Under the pieces are notes generated by a model. It was not told the origin of the DNA, did no database searches, and saw only the letters and a list, made by a program, of their open reading frames with translations. A DNA stretch of 64,000 nt, taken from Ensifer sp. LC163. GTDB taxonomy: Bacteria; Pseudomonadota; Alphaproteobacteria; Rhizobiales; Rhizobiaceae. The DNA is taken from assembly GCF_001695855.1 (NCBI RefSeq), contig NZ_MBSS01000002.1, positions 62,001 through 126,000 on the forward strand, read 5' to 3'. Below, piece after piece: positions 25,886-33,018 of this stretch (within the stretch, counting starts at the first letter, position 1; every line of letters starts with the position of its first letter). A program made the position numbers and the translations under genes.

Positions 25886-27226
25886 TCAGCCGGCCTCGCC
25901 ATCGTTCTGGGCGGCGATATCGAACTTGCGCATCTTGAGGTAAAGCGTCTTGCGGGAGATGCCGAGCGCATCGGCGGTTGCCCCGACGCGGCCGTCGTGC
26001 CTGGCCAGGCTGTCGAGAAGGATGGCGCGCTCAAGCCGGTCCATCTGCACCTCCAGAGTCTCGCGGCTTTGCGCTGCCCGGTCGCTATCGCGGTGGTCTT
26101 CAAGCCCGAGCACGAAGCGTTCCGCGACGTTGCGCAGCTCGCGAACGTTGCCCGGCCATGGCCTGCCATTGAGTTCGGCCAGCAGCTCGGCGCTCACCCG
26201 TGGCGGCGTCCGGCCCTGCCGCTTGGCGGCGAGCCCAAGGAAATGCTGGAACAAGAGGCCGACGTCGCCCTTGCGTTGGGCGAGCGGCGGCAGCTCCACA
26301 CGGGCGATGTCGAGGCGATAGGCGAGGTCTTCCCGGAAATCGCCCTTCTTCGCGGCCTCGTGCAGATCCGCTTTCGTCGCCGCCACGACGCGCATGTCGA
26401 CCGGCAGCTCGACGTTGGAGCCGAGCCGTTCGATGACGCGCTCCTGCAGCACACGCAGCAGCCGCACCTGGGCTGCAAGCGGCATCGATTCGATCTCGTC
26501 GAGAAACAGCGTGCCGCCGTCGGCGTATTCGATCTTGCCGATGCGCTTTTCGCGTGCGCCGGTAAAGGCGCCGGCTTCATGGCCGAAGAGTTCCGATTCC
26601 AGCATGGTTTCCGGAATGGCGCCGCAATTGACGGCGACGAACCGCCCCTTGCGTCCGCTGAAATCGTGGAGCGCACGTGCCGTCACTTCCTTGCCGGTGC
26701 CGGTATCGCCGATAATCAGCGCGTCGGTCGCCGCCGCAGCGATGCGCTTCAATTTCTCCCGCAGTGCAACCATCGGCGTGGAATGTCCGATCAGGCGCGT
26801 TTCCCAGCCGTCGTCTTCCACCGACAACCGCAGTCGTCGGTTCTCGAGCAGCAGGCGGCGATGGTCCCGGGCGCGGCGCACCGTCTCGATCAGATGCACG
26901 GGATCTGCGGGCTTCTCCAGAAAATCCCAGGCGCCGTCGCGCATGGCGCGAAGGGCCATAGGGATGTCGCCGTGGCCTGACATGAGGATGATCGGGATTT
27001 CCTGGTCGATCTTGCGCACGGCGGCAACCAGATCGAAGCCATCGTGATCCGGCATCCGCACGTCGGAAACGATGACGGCGCGGCTGTCGGCGCGAAGGCC
27101 GGCGAGCACCGATGTCACCGAACCGTGCGGCGATACGCTGAGGTCTTCCAGTTCGAGCACCTGACAGCAGGCTTCAAGCACGCTGGCATCGTCGTCGATG
27201 AGGATGATATCCGGGTCCAACGTCAT
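25886..27226 (-). CDS. pgtA: PgtA-like NtrC-family response regulator
   Basis: 446-residue sigma-54 activator. Receiver domain residues 1-120 with the phosphoacceptor D55 in VIVSDVRMPDHDG. AAA+ domain about 145-380 with Walker A GDTGTGKE, the GAFTGA loop that contacts sigma-54, and Walker B GGTLFLDEIESM. A Fis-type helix-turn-helix ends the protein (GATADALGISRKTLYLKMRKF). ATG 27226 overlaps the kinase stop by four bases. It is divergent in function but not in direction from the afu operon: its stop abuts the afu promoter, which it probably activates through the CGGTAACA repeats. Similar to PgtA of the Salmonella phosphoglycerate system. Confidence 0.88.
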   Translation of the reverse strand: MTLDPDIILIDDDASVLEACCQVLELEDLSVSPHGSVTSVLAGLRADSRAVIVSDVRMPDHDGFDLVAAVRKIDQEIPIILMSGHGDIPMALRAMRDGAWDFLEKPADPVHLIETVRRARDHRRLLLENRRLRLSVEDDGWETRLIGHSTPMVALREKLKRIAAAATDALIIGDTGTGKEVTARALHDFSGRKGRFVAVNCGAIPETMLESELFGHEAGAFTGAREKRIGKIEYADGGTLFLDEIESMPLAAQVRLLRVLQERVIERLGSNVELPVDMRVVAATKADLHEAAKKGDFREDLAYRLDIARVELPPLAQRKGDVGLLFQHFLGLAAKRQGRTPPRVSAELLAELNGRPWPGNVRELRNVAERFVLGLEDHRDSDRAAQSRETLEVQMDRLERAILLDSLARHDGRVGATADALGISRKTLYLKMRKFDIAAQNDGEAG

Positions 27227-29127
27227 TGCGGGCCTTTCAGGGATACGAGGAATTGCGTGCCGTGCGCACTGGTTTCGAGGATCGAGATCTCGCCGCCGAA
27301 GTCCTTGACGATGTTGTAGGAAATGGAGAGGCCGAGCCCGAGGCCGGAACCAACCGGCTTGGTGGTGAAGAATGGGTCGAAAACCGCGCCGATGTCGGCA
27401 ACAGCAATGCCGTTTCCGGTATCGCCGACGATCAACCGGGCATCGGTGCCGACCTGTCCTATCGTTGCGCTCACCTGCCGCACCGGCCTGCCTTTGACGG
27501 CGTCTAACGCGTTGCCGATGAGATTGACCGCCACCTGTTCGAGCCGCACCGGCTCGGCCATTACCATGACGGTGGCGTCCCCCTGCAGGCGCAGTTGCAT
27601 CTCGACAGCTTCTTCCTCGAAGCGGTGCTCTAGCAGGCTGAGCGCGTCGCGCACGGCGGCTGCAAGGTCGACGGGCCGCAACTGCGCGTCGGGCCGGCGC
27701 GCAAAGCGACGGATATGGCTGATCTGGTCGGCCATGCGTCCGGTCAATCCCTTCATCTTGTCGAGATTGAGCAACGCCTGCTCGCCTTTGCTACGCCCGA
27801 TCAGGGTCGTGGCACTGTGGATGTGTGCCCGAAGGGCTGCCAGCGGTTGGTTGAGTTCGTGGCCGATGCCGGCTGCCATCTGCCCGAGAGCCGCGAGCTT
27901 TGCCGACTGTATCAACTCGTCGCGCGTCTGGCGGAACAGGACCAGGGCATGGGCAAGATCGCCGAGTTCATCTGCTTCGGGTGAGGGGATCGCGGTTGCC
28001 GGGCGCCCGCTGCTGATCGCGCCCGCCGCTGCCGACAGAAGCCGGATGCGCGCCAGAAGATTGCGGTAGACGTAGAAGAAGCCGATCGCGGTTGCGAGCA
28101 GCACCGAAAGAATGGCGATGGCGACGAGCAGGCTGCGTCCGGTTTCGATCGCGGCGGCAGCGCGCTGTGCAGCTGCGGCGGCGCTGGCCTCTATCGCCAC
28201 CACTTCGGTTTCGATCCGGCGTCCGAGGTCGTCCACCAGGCGGCCGTTCTGGCTGGCGAGCTCGGAGAGTTTTGCCGCCTCGATCATTTCCGAGCGCTTG
28301 CGATTGGGGATGCCCGTCAGCACGTCTGACTGGTCGAGAATACGGCGCGCCAGTTGCCGAACGGTGATGCTGTCCGGCCAGTTTTCGAGACTGGCAATGC
28401 GGCTTGCGAGTTCGTCGGCACTGTCGCCGAGGAAGGCGTTGGTTTCCTGGATTTCCTCTTGCGTGGCGGCGTTGACGAGCCGGCCGATCAGCCCCGTCGC
28501 CAGGTTCGCCTGCGATACGGCCGTCAGCAACGCCTCGCTCTTTTGTTGTTCCGCGAGCGCTGCCGCCTCGTGCCCGTTGCGCGTCTCGGCTTCGATGTTG
28601 AAGCGAATGTCGTCGACGAGCGGGTCTGCCTCCTCAAGCAGGTCTGCCTGGACCCACCGCAGTTCGTCGATGTCGGAGCGCATCGCCTCGCGAAGGGTGA
28701 AGCGCTTGCCGGCAGCAAGGTCGATCTTGTCGAGGTTCTCGCCGATCGCTTCTGCCAGCGGCAGCAGATCGGTCGCATCCGACTTCGCGCCGCCTTCCCC
28801 AAGTAGCGAGCGCAACGTGGTGAGGCGAGCCGCGTAGCTGCTGCGGATCTCGTTATACTCGGAACGCGTCTCGGCACCGGCGAGAACCGTCGTAACCGAA
28901 CCGATGTCGGCGCCCGCCTTCGACAGCCGGGAGGCGAAAGCGAGTTGCGGCATCTGGTCTTCCGCGATCCGCGACAGTTCGCCGGACAGCCGCTCATAGG
29001 ACAGCCAGCCGACAAGGCAGGCGCCGACGGCGAGCCCGACGATCGCGACGAAGGCCAGGACGAGCCGCGCACCGATGCCGAACCGCCAGCGGCGCGCGGC
29101 GGAAGCAGGGGCCATGGCTGGGTTCAT
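27223..29127 (-). CDS. pgtB: PgtB-like membrane sensor histidine kinase
   Basis: 634-residue kinase. First membrane helix about 17-45, a long helical periplasmic domain (about 46-335) rather than a small PAS, second helix about 338-362, HAMP, then the phosphoacceptor H423 in GIGHELNQPLAALRAH and an ATPase domain with N-box LIGNALDAV, DTGNGI and GSGLGLGLS. The H-box form is that of the DctB/PgtB group. ATG 29127 overlaps the TAA of the pgtC-like gene by one base (TAATG), which fixes the start; the open frame continues further upstream inside pgtC. It should receive the signal from the PgtC-like periplasmic protein. Confidence 0.87.
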   Translation of the reverse strand: MNPAMAPASAARRWRFGIGARLVLAFVAIVGLAVGACLVGWLSYERLSGELSRIAEDQMPQLAFASRLSKAGADIGSVTTVLAGAETRSEYNEIRSSYAARLTTLRSLLGEGGAKSDATDLLPLAEAIGENLDKIDLAAGKRFTLREAMRSDIDELRWVQADLLEEADPLVDDIRFNIEAETRNGHEAAALAEQQKSEALLTAVSQANLATGLIGRLVNAATQEEIQETNAFLGDSADELASRIASLENWPDSITVRQLARRILDQSDVLTGIPNRKRSEMIEAAKLSELASQNGRLVDDLGRRIETEVVAIEASAAAAAQRAAAAIETGRSLLVAIAILSVLLATAIGFFYVYRNLLARIRLLSAAAGAISSGRPATAIPSPEADELGDLAHALVLFRQTRDELIQSAKLAALGQMAAGIGHELNQPLAALRAHIHSATTLIGRSKGEQALLNLDKMKGLTGRMADQISHIRRFARRPDAQLRPVDLAAAVRDALSLLEHRFEEEAVEMQLRLQGDATVMVMAEPVRLEQVAVNLIGNALDAVKGRPVRQVSATIGQVGTDARLIVGDTGNGIAVADIGAVFDPFFTTKPVGSGLGLGLSISYNIVKDFGGEISILETSAHGTQFLVSLKGPQ

Positions 29128-30518
29128 TATTGCCGCCATGGCTGCAGGTTTGCCGCCGGTCGTCCGACGGAGGACAGAAGCATTTCGGCTGTCGCCAGAT
29201 TCCGCTCGATCGTGGCGCGCAACCTCTGCGTCAGCGCGGTATGCGCCGGCGAGCGGGCAATGCTGCGCGGCCACTCGGCCTTGAGGGATTCGTCCGCGTT
29301 TTCGACGTCGCTTGCCGAAAGCGGCGGCGTGCCCAGCAGACGCCGGGCTCTCGCAAGCATGCTGCGCTGCTGCGCATCCTCGATCTCGGTTGCTTCCAGG
29401 TCCGCTACCCTCTTCCAAAGCCGGGCAAGCGTCGCCCGGCGGCGCACGATATAGTCGTCGAAGATCAGGTTGACGAGACCATAACGTCGTGCCGACAGCG
29501 CCGCGTCGAAACCGCTGTATTTCAACAGGCCGTCACCGCTTTCCTGCGGTAGCAGGCCCTTGTTGAGCGCCGGGTTGAGGGGAATGCGGGCCACGGCCGG
29601 CAGCAACAGCACCCTCTGGCCGTCTTCCGACAGAACGAAATCGATGAACCGCTCGGCAGCTCGAACATTGCGCGCCCGTGAGAGGATCGCGATGCTGGCC
29701 GGTACGAACACGGTGTCGGGCGGCAGGATGAACACGTTGCCCGCATCGGCGAAATCAGGCGCATTGGCGAGGAAGTCGATGGTGATGCCGATGCTGAAGC
29801 GCCTTTGGGCGACACCGGATGCAACACCGAAACTGCGGGCCGTGACGGTCGACAGATTGCCGCCGAGCTGGGACAGCATCGCCCAGCCTTTTTCCCATCC
29901 ATAGGTCTGCAGCAAGGCTTCGACGATCAGATGCGTCGTGCCCGACCGCGAGGGGGTGGTGATGCCGATCTGACCGGAATAGACGGGCTTCAGCAGGTCC
30001 TGCCAGTCTCGTGGCACCGGCAGCTTGTTCTGAGCGAGATAGGACTGATTGTAGACGAAGCCGTATCCGGAGAGAGCAAAGCCCAGGTAATAGCCCTCGG
30101 GATCGTTGACCGGATAGCCGAAGACTTTTTCGGCAGCCCCGGTGTGGCGCGGCGCAATCGGGCGCAGATCGCCGCTGCGCTTCAACAGCTCGAAAGCATC
30201 GGCGGCCGAGGCCCAGAATATGTCGGCCGGGACATCGGCTTTTTCCATGACGAAGCGCGTCGCGCTTGCCGTGTTGCGCTGAACGATCGACATGCGGATA
30301 TCAGGGTTCGCGGTCTCGAACGCCTGCCGAAACGGCTCGAAGAACGACGGCGGATACGAGGTGACGACCACCAGATCCTGTTTTTCGGCCGCCTGCGCAG
30401 CGGACACGAGCATGGTGACGCAGGCAAGAGCCAGCAGCCGCAATGCCGCAAGAATGACGAACCGGACCTTCAACACTTCACGCCACCACGACCAGCGCCT
30501 GCTCCCTTTGGGAAGCAT
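29127..30518 (-). CDS. pgtC: PgtC-like periplasmic signal-sensing protein
   Basis: 463-residue exported protein of the binding-protein fold. Hydrophobic signal at residues about 20-43 (cleavage after AAQA) after a long basic start; GGGAGGG lies about 11 bases before the ATG, somewhat far, so a GTG 14 codons downstream is an alternative. The body parallels the AfuA-type protein: DIFWASAADAFELL, GYPVNDPEGYYLGF, SRSGTTHLIVEALLQ, GGNLSTVTARSFGV, LNPALN. The tail has a helical region (ADLEATEIEDAQQRSMLARARRLL). It is coupled to a sensor kinase, not a permease, so it most likely binds the substrate and signals to PgtB. It appears to be a duplicated and re-used binding protein. Confidence 0.8.
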   Translation of the reverse strand: MLPKGSRRWSWWREVLKVRFVILAALRLLALACVTMLVSAAQAAEKQDLVVVTSYPPSFFEPFRQAFETANPDIRMSIVQRNTASATRFVMEKADVPADIFWASAADAFELLKRSGDLRPIAPRHTGAAEKVFGYPVNDPEGYYLGFALSGYGFVYNQSYLAQNKLPVPRDWQDLLKPVYSGQIGITTPSRSGTTHLIVEALLQTYGWEKGWAMLSQLGGNLSTVTARSFGVASGVAQRRFSIGITIDFLANAPDFADAGNVFILPPDTVFVPASIAILSRARNVRAAERFIDFVLSEDGQRVLLLPAVARIPLNPALNKGLLPQESGDGLLKYSGFDAALSARRYGLVNLIFDDYIVRRRATLARLWKRVADLEATEIEDAQQRSMLARARRLLGTPPLSASDVENADESLKAEWPRSIARSPAHTALTQRLRATIERNLATAEMLLSSVGRPAANLQPWRQ

Positions 30519-30687: not shown

Positions 30688-30716
30688 CTTGGCGGTTGCG
30701 GGCGATTCGCCTATAA
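30688..30716 (+). promoter_or_regulatory. Sigma-70-type promoter of the ABC exporter leader
   Basis: CTTGGC (30688-30693), 17 bases, CTATAA (30711-30716). This is near the S. meliloti housekeeping consensus CTTGAC-N17-CTATAT. Transcription would begin at about 30723, 28 bases before a short leader ORF. Confidence 0.65.
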
Positions 30717-30750
30717 CCCGACTTCCGGCAACAGATCAGGGAGGTTTCAG

Positions 30751-30795
30751 ATGCCAGCTTATTCTTTCTCCCTACGGGGCGGCGTGCAGTTCTGA
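30751..30795 (+). CDS. 14-residue leader peptide ORF upstream of the ABC exporter
   Basis: Reads MPAYSFSLRGGVQF then TGA. The ribosome site is strong (GGGAGG at 30739-30744, six bases before the ATG), much better than that of the exporter gene itself. It lies just after a good promoter and 186 bases before the exporter, with three stem-loops between. The peptide resembles the start of the exporter (FSLRGG here, FALRGG there), so it may be a partial duplication of that 5' end. Too short for family recognition; a regulatory leader is inferred from layout. Confidence 0.5.
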   Translation: MPAYSFSLRGGVQF

Positions 30796-30981
30796 AGTAG
30801 ACGCTTGAGAGCATTCGCGCTCTTTAGCTGTTCAAGTCAGGACCTGTTTCGCTGACTTTGGTCTTCCCTTGATGCGGAAGCTACCAATCCATTGATGCCG
30901 ATAGGAAAACCGTTTCCCTTTCTCGGCATGTTTCATTGATTAGAATTTTGAGGCCAGTGCTTTTGGCATTGGGCAATCGTT
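30796..30981 (+). promoter_or_regulatory. Structured 5' leader with three stem-loops
   Basis: Stem 1: AGAGC (30808-30812) with GCTCT (30819-30823), extendable by CTTGA (30804-30808) with TCAAG (30832-30836). Stem 2: AAGTCAG (30834-30840) with CTGACTT (30852-30858). Stem 3: ATGCCGA (30895-30901) with TCGGCAT (30923-30929), with an inner GGAAA/TTTCC helix. The extended form of stem 1 and stem 2 share bases 30834-30836 and so exclude each other. The exporter start has only a weak ribosome site (TTGGGC). Together with the leader ORF this looks like an attenuation or translation-control region. Confidence 0.5.
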
Positions 30982-32796
30982 ATGGCTTTTACTCGTTTCG
31001 CCTTGCGCGGCGGTGCGTTCCGCAGCGTTCTCGGTTTCACCTGGGTCCATTGGAAGCGCCAGCCGCTTCGCCTTTGCTTCATCCTCGGCGCCGTTCTGTT
31101 TTCGACGCTCGCGGATGTCTTGACGCCGCTTTACTCCGGTCGGCTTGTCGACGCGGTCGTGACCGGTGCTGCCTCGGACCAGGTGGCCTGGGATGCGGCA
31201 CTTGCAGCATTCTGGATGATGACGGCCCTGTCGCTCGGTGCCATCATTTTCCGGCATTTTACCTTCATGGGTGTCGTCGATCTGACGCTCAAGATGATGT
31301 CCGACATCGCCTCGGCGGCCTTCTTCCGCATTCAGCGGTTCTCGTCTGATTGGCATGCCAACAGCTTTGCCGGCTCGACGGTGCGTAAGGTGACGCGCGG
31401 CATGTGGGCGCTGGATCTGTTGAACGATACGCTGCTGATCGCGCTGTTTCCGTCGGTCATCATGCTGGTCGGCTCGACCACTCTGATGGCGTGGTACTGG
31501 CCGATGATGGGTGTCATCATCGGCGTGGGCTCGCTCATCTTCATCGCTGCAACGGTCACGTTGTCGCTGGGCTACGTCGCGCCTATGGCGCGCCTGGCCA
31601 ACAGCTGGGACACCAAGCTCGGCGGTTCGCTTGCCGATGCCGTCAGCTGCAACAACGTCGTGAAGGGCTTCGGGGCGGAAAAGCGCGAGGATGCCCGGCT
31701 GGTCAAGGTGCTGGCCAAATGGCGGGACCGCACGGGCCGGACCTGGGTCCGCGGAACGGTGAACGGAACGACGCAGGGCGCGCTGTTGCTCGTACTGCGG
31801 GCGGCGGTCATCGGCTTTGCGCTGTTCCTCTGGTCGCGCGGACAGGCAACTGCGGGCGATATCACCTTCGTGCTGACCTCCTTCTTCATCCTGCAGGGTT
31901 ACCTGCGTGAAGTGGGCATGCACATCCGCAACCTGCAGCGATCCGTCAACGATATGGAAGAGCTGGTGGACATCCACGCCCAGCCGCTCGGTATCGAAGA
32001 CAAGGCCGATGCAAAGCCGATCCGCATCACCGATGGCCGCGTCGAATTCAACGATGTGACCTTCCACTACGGCGCGCATCGCAAGCCGCTCTACGATCGG
32101 TTCTCGGTGACGATACCGGCGGGGGAACGTGTCGGTCTTGTTGGACACTCCGGCTCGGGCAAGACGACCTTCGTCAAGCTGATCCAGCGCCTGCACGACC
32201 TGAAGTCCGGCCAGATCCGGATCGACGGTCAGGATATCGCCGGCGTTGCCCAGGCTTCGCTGCGCCAGCAGATCGCGATCGTCCAGCAGGAGCCGATCCT
32301 GTTCCACCGGTCGCTTGCGGAGAACATCGCCTATGCCAGGCCGACGGCCACGCAAGCGGAGATCGAGAAGGCGGCAAAGCTTGCGAGCGCCCACGACTTC
32401 ATCACCGCGCTGCCGAAAGGTTACGGCACGCTGGTCGGCGAACGTGGGGTCAAGCTTTCGGGCGGCGAGCGCCAGCGCATCGCCATCGCCCGGGCCTTCC
32501 TGGCAGATGCACCGATCCTCATTCTGGACGAGGCGACCTCGAGCCTCGATTCGGAATCGGAAGTACTGATCCAGCAGGCGATGGAGCGGTTGATGTTGGG
32601 GCGCACAACCCTGGTGATCGCGCACCGGCTGTCGACCGTGCGCGCGCTCGACCGGTTGCTGGTGTTCAGCCACGGCCGCATCGCCGAGGAGGGCACGCAC
32701 GAGGCGCTGATCCGCCTCGACGGCGGCATCTACCGGGGGCTGTTCGAGCGGCAGGCGCTGGAACTGACCAAGGGCCTCGTGCTCAACGACAGCTGA
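30982..32796 (+). CDS. ABC exporter, fused membrane and ATPase domains
   Basis: 604-residue half-transporter that should work as a homodimer in the inner membrane. Six membrane helices lie in residues about 35-320; the ATPase follows with Walker A GHSGSGKTT at about 393-401, signature LSGGERQRIAIARAFL, Walker B ILILDEATSSLDSES and H-loop IAHRLSTV. It belongs to the MsbA/multidrug/Atm1 class; the exact substrate is not evident. ATG 30982 begins MAFTRFALRGG. Preceding DNA is an unusual structured leader with a short ORF, so expression is probably regulated after initiation. A composite palindromic repeat follows the stop. Confidence 0.88.
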   Translation: MAFTRFALRGGAFRSVLGFTWVHWKRQPLRLCFILGAVLFSTLADVLTPLYSGRLVDAVVTGAASDQVAWDAALAAFWMMTALSLGAIIFRHFTFMGVVDLTLKMMSDIASAAFFRIQRFSSDWHANSFAGSTVRKVTRGMWALDLLNDTLLIALFPSVIMLVGSTTLMAWYWPMMGVIIGVGSLIFIAATVTLSLGYVAPMARLANSWDTKLGGSLADAVSCNNVVKGFGAEKREDARLVKVLAKWRDRTGRTWVRGTVNGTTQGALLLVLRAAVIGFALFLWSRGQATAGDITFVLTSFFILQGYLREVGMHIRNLQRSVNDMEELVDIHAQPLGIEDKADAKPIRITDGRVEFNDVTFHYGAHRKPLYDRFSVTIPAGERVGLVGHSGSGKTTFVKLIQRLHDLKSGQIRIDGQDIAGVAQASLRQQIAIVQQEPILFHRSLAENIAYARPTATQAEIEKAAKLASAHDFITALPKGYGTLVGERGVKLSGGERQRIAIARAFLADAPILILDEATSSLDSESEVLIQQAMERLMLGRTTLVIAHRLSTVRALDRLLVFSHGRIAEEGTHEALIRLDGGIYRGLFERQALELTKGLVLNDS

Positions 32797-32843
32797 GGTC
32801 AGGCGCAAGCCGCAAACGGTGAAATGCACGGACGCCGGTACCT

Positions 32844-32948
32844 ACTGCATAATTCCTTAAATCGGAATCGATTTAAGGACAAAATTATGCAGCAGCTCAA
32901 AGTGTTACAGCGACCTTTGCGCGTCTAGATAGACGCGCGGCGCTGTAA
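32844..32948. repeat. Composite Rhizobiaceae intergenic repeat, two modules
   Basis: First module: CTGCATAATT and AATTATGCAG outer arms with CCTTAAATCG and CGATTTAAGG inner arms (32845-32892). Second module (32899-32948) is the AAAGTGTTACAGCG element also found alone at 4033-4081. It lies between the convergent ends of the exporter and flavoprotein genes. Confidence 0.75.
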
Positions 32949-33018
32949 GTGTGCCGGCGTCTTGCGTTTCGCTTTCCTTGGCCGGGGCGCCATCGATGCC
33001 GCCTTGTGAATGCGACAC

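Follow-up and report, generated by a model that had tools for sequence, protein, structure and literature searches.

A conserved short reading frame and a split ribosome site ahead of an ABC exporter gene in Ensifer: a possible translation-sensing leader

Related leaders and ribosome sites

In the duf1127-1 leader of Sinorhizobium meliloti, translation of an upstream open reading frame (uORF) is needed for attenuation, and the ribosome-binding site of the uORF is able to pair with C-rich codons early in the same frame (PMC12218461). In that work the leader is induced by tetracycline; an intrinsic terminator was looked for and not detected, and termination is presumed to involve Rho (PMC12218461). 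The leader described here precedes an ABC exporter gene in a 64,000-nt stretch of Ensifer sp. LC163 DNA (the window; features are on its forward strand unless stated otherwise). It resembles the duf1127-1 leader in being long and in carrying a short uORF with a strong Shine-Dalgarno sequence (SD) (PMC12218461). The ribosome-binding site of the uORF is likewise able to pair with an early C-rich element, except in the uORFs of the Mesorhizobium type. Gene and leader sequence are different, and the uORF of duf1127-1 is longer (codons up to 24). Furthermore, the present exporter has a split ribosome site, and the window shows no bias of C over G.

At phage T4 genes 38 and 25, a hairpin shortens the distance between SD and AUG from 22 to 5 nt and from 27 to 11 nt, respectively, in the available text of PMC3014915. 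The exporter start is similar to these, with a sequence-predicted shortening from about 28 to 8 nt. Unlike in T4, the split site belongs to a family of cellular genes spread over Alphaproteobacteria, and it is joined to a uORF.

In drug-inducible attenuators of the ermC type, a short ORF is followed by hairpins and then by a gene of the resistance type. The exporter leader has this order as well. It differs in that neither an arrest peptide nor alternative stems are conserved and the release of a hidden SD is not predicted.

ROSE-like thermometers at ABC transporter genes resemble the exporter start in having a hairpin where the ribosome binds. In the available description of those elements the SD lies within the stem, opposite U(U/C)GCU, whereas here it is located mainly 5' of the stem (PMC11342760). 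A thermometer of this kind was rejected, as U(U/C)GCU occurs in the last 60 nt of only 8 of 52 leaders and the SD is mainly outside the stem.

The window has no Rfam match at gathering score; two sub-threshold matches fall in the leader (E up to 5). We know of no described case in which a split ribosome site is widely conserved in cellular genes and accompanied by a uORF, and none was found among the literature titles and beginnings of abstracts that were searched.

uORF conservation and peptide drift

Both the near-consensus promoter and the 14-codon ORF with a strong ribosome site proposed in the initial annotation hold. The promoter (30689–30717) was read from the sequence as TTGGCG (30689–30694) and TATAAC (30712–30717) separated by a 17-nt spacer, and TTGGCG and TATA are aligned in 16 of 16 genus members. 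A strict promoter scan of the window, which requires a final T in the second hexamer, lists none at this place. The SD of the uORF, AGGGAGG (30738–30744), is invariant in 23 Ensifer and Sinorhizobium leaders. The uORF itself (30751–30795) encodes MPAYSFSLRGGVQF, with 14 codons plus stop from the ATG at 30751 to the TGA ending at 30795.

Leader DNA and uORF are present in all 16 genomes of the genus. The uORF nucleotides are 96.3% identical on average and the 20 nt before them 93.5%, compared with 67.4% and 69.2% for two 45-nt stretches 3' of the uORF. For family-level and named genomes, 118 distinct leaders were obtained from 128 loci, ten being dropped as duplicates before counting. A uORF, defined by an ATG, a 5-base SD and 9–40 codons, is found in 112 of these leaders and in 5.1% of dinucleotide shuffles. 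Its length is 11–20 codons in 105 of the 112 (16.9% with shuffled downstream sequence); in a few loci (L070, L075, L130) the automatic rule takes a wrong or longer ORF. In six leaders the rule finds no uORF (L042, L105, L124, L126, L128, L129). Of these, L124 has a candidate started by TTG and L126 a candidate with a weaker SD, and L129 belongs to a second exporter copy in a Mesorhizobium strain whose first copy is L099. The leader of L105 (Mesorhizobium erdmanii) matches its relatives only near the exporter start; the part with promoter and uORF appears to be replaced by unrelated sequence.

An evenly drawn order sample has a match (E ≤ 1e-50) in 47 of its 249 genomes, and an evenly drawn phylum sample in 38 of 398. 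Of the 50 loci kept from both samples, which include some family members already counted in the other set, 43 have the uORF; outside the same family, to which 11 of the 50 belong, it is present in 32 of 39. Among 14 named plasmid loci the rule finds it in 10, including Skermanella, Caballeronia and Burkholderia arboris. The Pseudochrobactrum plasmid locus has a uORF only under a wider rule, that of S. fredii 83666 is doubtful, and none was found in the plasmid copies of R. gallicum, Pandoraea and Bradyrhizobium. Within its own genome the uORF core has one exact site. A search for a second copy gave four sites with 3 mismatches, compared with three for a reversed control pattern.

Shuffle controls ignore shared descent, an effect that tests on 52 clusters reduce and do not remove. 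The uORF is conserved far beyond chance, and this short, strongly initiated, promoter-proximal ORF in the structured leader of an ABC exporter is therefore, judged by its sequence, very probably regulatory.

The encoded peptide is not preserved in the same way. From 182 loci, 165 uORFs were collected, which yield 110 distinct peptides in 52 divergent clusters; this set includes a probably spurious uORF at −86 (L149) and five loci with uncertain exporter starts (L102, L128, L186, L189, L192). The stretch TCTCCCTACGGGG begins at nucleotide 16 of the uORF in S. meliloti and at nucleotide 17 in the window, so that conserved nucleotides are read in another frame. The resulting peptides are MKAFSSPYGADPRS in S. 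meliloti and MPAYSFSLRGGVQF in the window, and the uORF of S. medicae has the same frame shift as that of S. meliloti. Comparison of the leader in relatives, as suggested by the initial annotation, thus confirms the ORF, whereas the peptide is not kept beyond the genus. Because of the 52 divergent clusters and the other frame in S. meliloti, the specific drug-sensing peptide of that annotation is not supported, and on sequence grounds an arrest peptide specific for a drug is unlikely. As leader elements are kept while the peptide changes freely, the comparison suggests that the amount of exporter would be set by the act of translating the uORF and not by its peptide.

Two further properties of the peptide were considered. 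A run of three equal residues, as expected for trp-like control codons, does not occur in the 16 Ensifer peptides, and an amino-acid attenuator was rejected. The leader peptide of the window resembles the N-terminus of the exporter (MAFTRFALRGGAF, 30982–31023; p = 0.0095 compared with shuffles). A leader peptide that copies the exporter N-terminus was rejected as not general over the 52 clusters (permutation p = 0.60).

Leader devices, proposed mechanism and alternatives

The tetranucleotide UCCC is complementary to GGGA of the uORF SD. Counted with one uORF per cluster, it is the 4-mer with the largest excess and is present in 38 of 52 clusters. Dinucleotide shuffles give 19.0 clusters (s.d. 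3.1, maximum of 100 runs 27) and random synonymous recoding gives 17.5 (s.d. 2.6, maximum 26). In 29 of the 38 it lies at positions 17–26, with zero at the A of AUG, and 38 of 143 stretches of 45 nt behind the uORF contain it. Sequence comparison thus indicates that UCCC is under constraint at the RNA level. In the window it is part of the CUCCCUACGGGG element (30768–30779), which is complementary to the SD of its own uORF and is read in a different frame in S. meliloti; the Ensifer pairing is AGGGAG/CUCCCU. Over all 165 uORFs, a set dominated by the Mesorhizobium type, whose uORFs are without UCCC, it is found in 89. Inside the uORF or just upstream it is present in 43 of 52 clusters, and only 5 of the 14 clusters without an internal UCCC have one upstream.

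The uORF SD is predicted to be unpaired at an average level of 0.12, compared with 0.21 when its flanks are shuffled, and the value is lower in 41 of 52 clusters. Compared with shuffles, its predicted pairing with the uORF body is stronger for Ensifer (z = −1.79), for Sinorhizobium (−0.89) and for the other leaders (−0.66), and not for Phyllobacterium (+0.44) or the Mesorhizobium type (+1.11). In the latter two groups the pairing of the SD leans to the 5' side (z = −0.96 and −0.52, respectively).

The second device is located at the exporter start. The initial annotation regarded the exporter's ribosome site as poor. An SD is indeed missing in the usual place, but a displaced GAGG (30950–30953) is found 5' of a hairpin, P5 (CCAGUGC/GCAUUGG, 30954–30972), which lies between this SD and the AUG and splits the ribosome site. 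Of the 118 leaders, 3 have an SD 4-mer at the usual position, or 4 by a slightly wider pattern. A hairpin of at least 6 bp that ends 3–16 nt before the exporter AUG occurs in 99 of 118 (shuffles 19.5%). These hairpins have 44 different stem sequences, for example UCGGGC/GCCCGA, CCGGGC/GCCCGG, CCGAUGC/GCAUCGG and CCAACGC/GCGUUGG. In 95 of the 99 an SD-like 4-mer directly precedes the stem and shares with it at most the first 3 nt. The complete arrangement of SD, hairpin and 3–12 nt to the AUG is present in 96 of 118 leaders (shuffles 1.1%), in 25 of the 50 wider loci (2.3%) and in 6 of the 14 plasmid loci (1.1%). In the 124 loci with both devices the median distance from SD to AUG is 28 nt (23–34), which becomes 8 nt (3–14) after subtraction of the hairpin. 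We infer from this arrangement that P5 may help translation of the exporter.

Both devices are conserved and the peptide is not. On account of the sequence logic in common with the duf1127-1 leader, a peptide-independent, translation-sensing leader joined to the split ribosome site of the exporter is rated most likely, and this reading is preferred tentatively. In the first device, the very strong SD of the short uORF would be partly masked by pairing with the UCCC element. This element usually falls at codons 6–9 of the uORF; certain clades have it immediately 5' of the SD. Initiation and translation of the uORF would be decisive, whatever peptide they yield. In healthy cells ribosomes would open the SD/UCCC hairpin, and transcription could then end prematurely, with Rho as the probable factor, in the untranslated stretch 3' of the uORF, which most lineages have rich in C and poor in G. 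If translation inhibitors or a shortage of ribosomes made initiation or early elongation fail, the element would be hidden, by the SD/UCCC hairpin or by a halted ribosome, and transcription would continue into the exporter gene. In the second device, the hairpin of the split site would move the distant SD to a working distance. Translation of the uORF, the direction of regulation and the part of Rho are what we infer from these features. Drug induction could follow from translation sensing.

The base composition bears on the part of Rho. In 49 of 51 clusters C outnumbers G between uORF and exporter (on average 0.357 for C and 0.251 for G), compared with 27 of 51 for a control stretch before the promoter, which is not a sample of other 5' UTRs; one cluster (L149) was left out as its stretch is too short. 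The window is an exception among the clusters. Its stretch has C 0.24 and G 0.23 and therefore no rut-like bias, and the 16 Ensifer leaders average C 0.28 and G 0.24.

More tentatively still, the leader may combine a peptide-independent gauge of translation capacity with an SD-hairpin-AUG start that shows compensating stem changes, all within one ABC exporter family. This combination would be kept across Hyphomicrobiales, other Alphaproteobacteria and some Burkholderiaceae. If this holds, the family would offer a clear comparative case in genetically tractable rhizobia, with a published mechanism in the same group. The conserved split site would show a start of the T4 type in use, and retained, in a family of cellular genes, and it offers natural compensating stem changes. 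Searches for conserved peptides miss uORFs that keep position, SD and length while the peptide drifts.

The uORF could instead be a constant damper, a stabilizer or a ribosome-loading site, with exporter output set by the split site only. Peptide drift fits this. So does the lack of predicted coupling between occupancy of the uORF and the exporter start: for those 32 of the 52 cluster leaders that have a split site, masking of the uORF start, its stop or the whole uORF, in imitation of a bound ribosome, leaves the predicted accessibility of the exporter SD at 0.20–0.21 in all four states. P5 is predicted at 0.61–0.67 under uORF masking; for S. meliloti, none of the states is predicted to form P5 in the register that the rule selects. 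A plain loading site, on the other hand, would need neither the enrichment of UCCC nor the masking of the SD, and a constant role of the uORF is considered improbable.

The remaining hairpins of the leader are relevant to the next alternative. P1 (30807–30824) follows the uORF stop and is present in 16 of 16 Ensifer leaders (shuffles 0.40). P2 (AAGUCAG/CUGACUU, 30834–30858) shows paired changes by eye in the 16 Ensifer leaders and cannot be aligned in 7 Sinorhizobium leaders. P3 (30858–30887), with UUGG/CCAA as outer and CUUCC/GGAAG as inner stem, was assigned by eye and is less well supported. P4 (AUGCCGA/UCGGCAU, 30895–30929) has a weak U-rich tail. The fold of the whole leader is not better than that of shuffles (z = −0.86; 46 of 200 shuffles are as stable). 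A phylogeny-aware covariation scan of 48 Mesorhizobium-type leaders gave no significant pair (best E 3.6), and the hairpins therefore rest on the comparison with shuffles and on compensating stem sequences. The compensating changes anticipated by the initial annotation are seen by eye in P2 of Ensifer and in the 44 stems at the exporter start, but not in the covariation scan. Its extended first stem (CUUGA/UUCAAG), which would exclude the second, exists in the window, but by eye in only 2 of 16 genus members (L001, L002).

P4 might be an intrinsic terminator, with uORF translation choosing between P4 and an antiterminator. A pattern rule (a stem with 5 bp or more, then 5 or more U within 9 nt) is enriched in Ensifer (15/16, shuffles 0.28), Phyllobacterium (9/9, 0.16) and Sinorhizobium (6/7, 0.27). 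It is not enriched in Mesorhizobium-type (20/48, 0.46) or other leaders (10/32, 0.28). By an energy rule (−6 kcal/mol) 11 of 16 Ensifer leaders have a candidate, compared with 0.38 of shuffles; yet no group exceeds its shuffles by much, and the window lacks a candidate. An antiterminator formed by CGGCGU of the uORF and AUGCCG of P4 fits Ensifer and is missing in S. meliloti, both by eye, and was rejected. An intrinsic terminator is thus not clearly supported, P4 was not confirmed as one, and a choice between P4 and an antiterminator seems rather unlikely.

According to the initial annotation, a drug would stall the ribosome on an arrest peptide, the leader would refold and the exporter SD would be freed. 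The short ORF, the hairpins and an exporter with a weak-looking ribosome site agree with this mechanism, as does the near fixation of the peptide in the genus. The +X+ pattern, which favours macrolide arrest, is present in 43 of 48 Mesorhizobium-type peptides, there as R-G-R, in 2 of 32 other peptides and in none of the Ensifer (0/16), Phyllobacterium (0/9) and Sinorhizobium (0/7) peptides. However, the loss of the peptide beyond the genus, the frame change in S. meliloti and the rarity of the long first stem in the genus speak against it. Moreover, the exporter SD is predicted to be neither hidden nor released. Over 97 leaders taken together, it does not pair more strongly with the leader 5' of it than shuffles do (mean z = −0.39; Ensifer +0.52, Mesorhizobium type −0.95), so that sequestering is not clearly supported by the models, and neither this pairing nor the masking states described above show the release of the exporter SD that stalling was thought to bring about. 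An arrest-peptide attenuator is therefore very unlikely. The layout of the leader reported by the initial annotation is confirmed and its regulatory interpretation is partly supported.

In the Mesorhizobium-type leaders (L076–L131), a near-invariant GAGGCCGCGARGCCUAG extends across the uORF end and stop codon. It resembles a GNRA-capped hairpin, and the peptide at this place includes R-G-R.

AbcR-kind sRNAs carry anti-SD loops. Regulation by Hfq and a trans-acting sRNA of this kind, directed at the uORF SD region, would suit the near-invariance of that region and the uORF at the nucleotide level in the genus and the action of such sRNAs in S. meliloti (available part of PMC8844928), but GGGAGG is expected in any strong SD, and this is the least probable of the explanations considered.

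The exporter gene and its surroundings

The exporter gene (30982–32796, start ATG 30982) encodes 604 amino acids with the domains ABC_membrane and ABC_tran. Among the best 25 of 187 NCBIfam families, the exporter is below every curated cut-off. In the plasmid collection, Ensifer canadensis has the most similar exporter (97.8%). The ortholog in S. meliloti 1021 is encoded on pSymB and is 83.4% identical. In strain Ak57, the neighbours of the ortholog are exoF, an O-antigen ligase gene, exoZ, galE, queD and queE; those of the exporter gene in the window are different. The available part of PMC3568095 equates exsBCD with queCDE and cites Becker 1995, a title naming the ABC transporter gene exsA of the cluster. 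By sequence and synteny, the S. meliloti ortholog is identified as ExsA, and the exporter of the window as an ExsA ortholog. ExsA is described, in the available text of PMC3233446, as important in secretion of high-molecular-weight EPS I and not as a drug exporter.

Within the titles and beginnings of abstracts covered, neither a uORF nor a split site was found described for exsA or this exporter. A word search of the main texts of PMC10117765 and PMC2873474 found no exs gene named. An earlier record as an unnamed S. meliloti sORF or leader transcript may exist, for example in sORF tables such as those of PMC10117765. In S. meliloti, SM2011_RS23660 is induced by tetracycline and has two sORFs in front of it (PMC12218461). 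Locus tags quoted in PMC10117765 favour a chromosomal location, and SM2011_RS23660 is therefore more likely a gene other than exsA.

The divergent neighbours of the exporter gene (25886–30518, minus strand) resemble a sensing set of the PgtABC type. They comprise a periplasmic binding protein, a histidine kinase similar to PgtB and a response regulator of the sigma-54 type, none of which reaches the NCBIfam cut-offs shown. The first 30 nt of the exporter gene (30982–31011) are 91.7% identical in the genus, although the preceding leader drifts. Additionally, a palindromic element of 131 nt is located 3' of the exporter gene (32835–32965). It is a dispersed repeat with at least 62 matches in its own genome, a minimum because scoring covered 40 of 378 first-look candidates, and about 40 of the matches are nearly full length at 93–98% identity.
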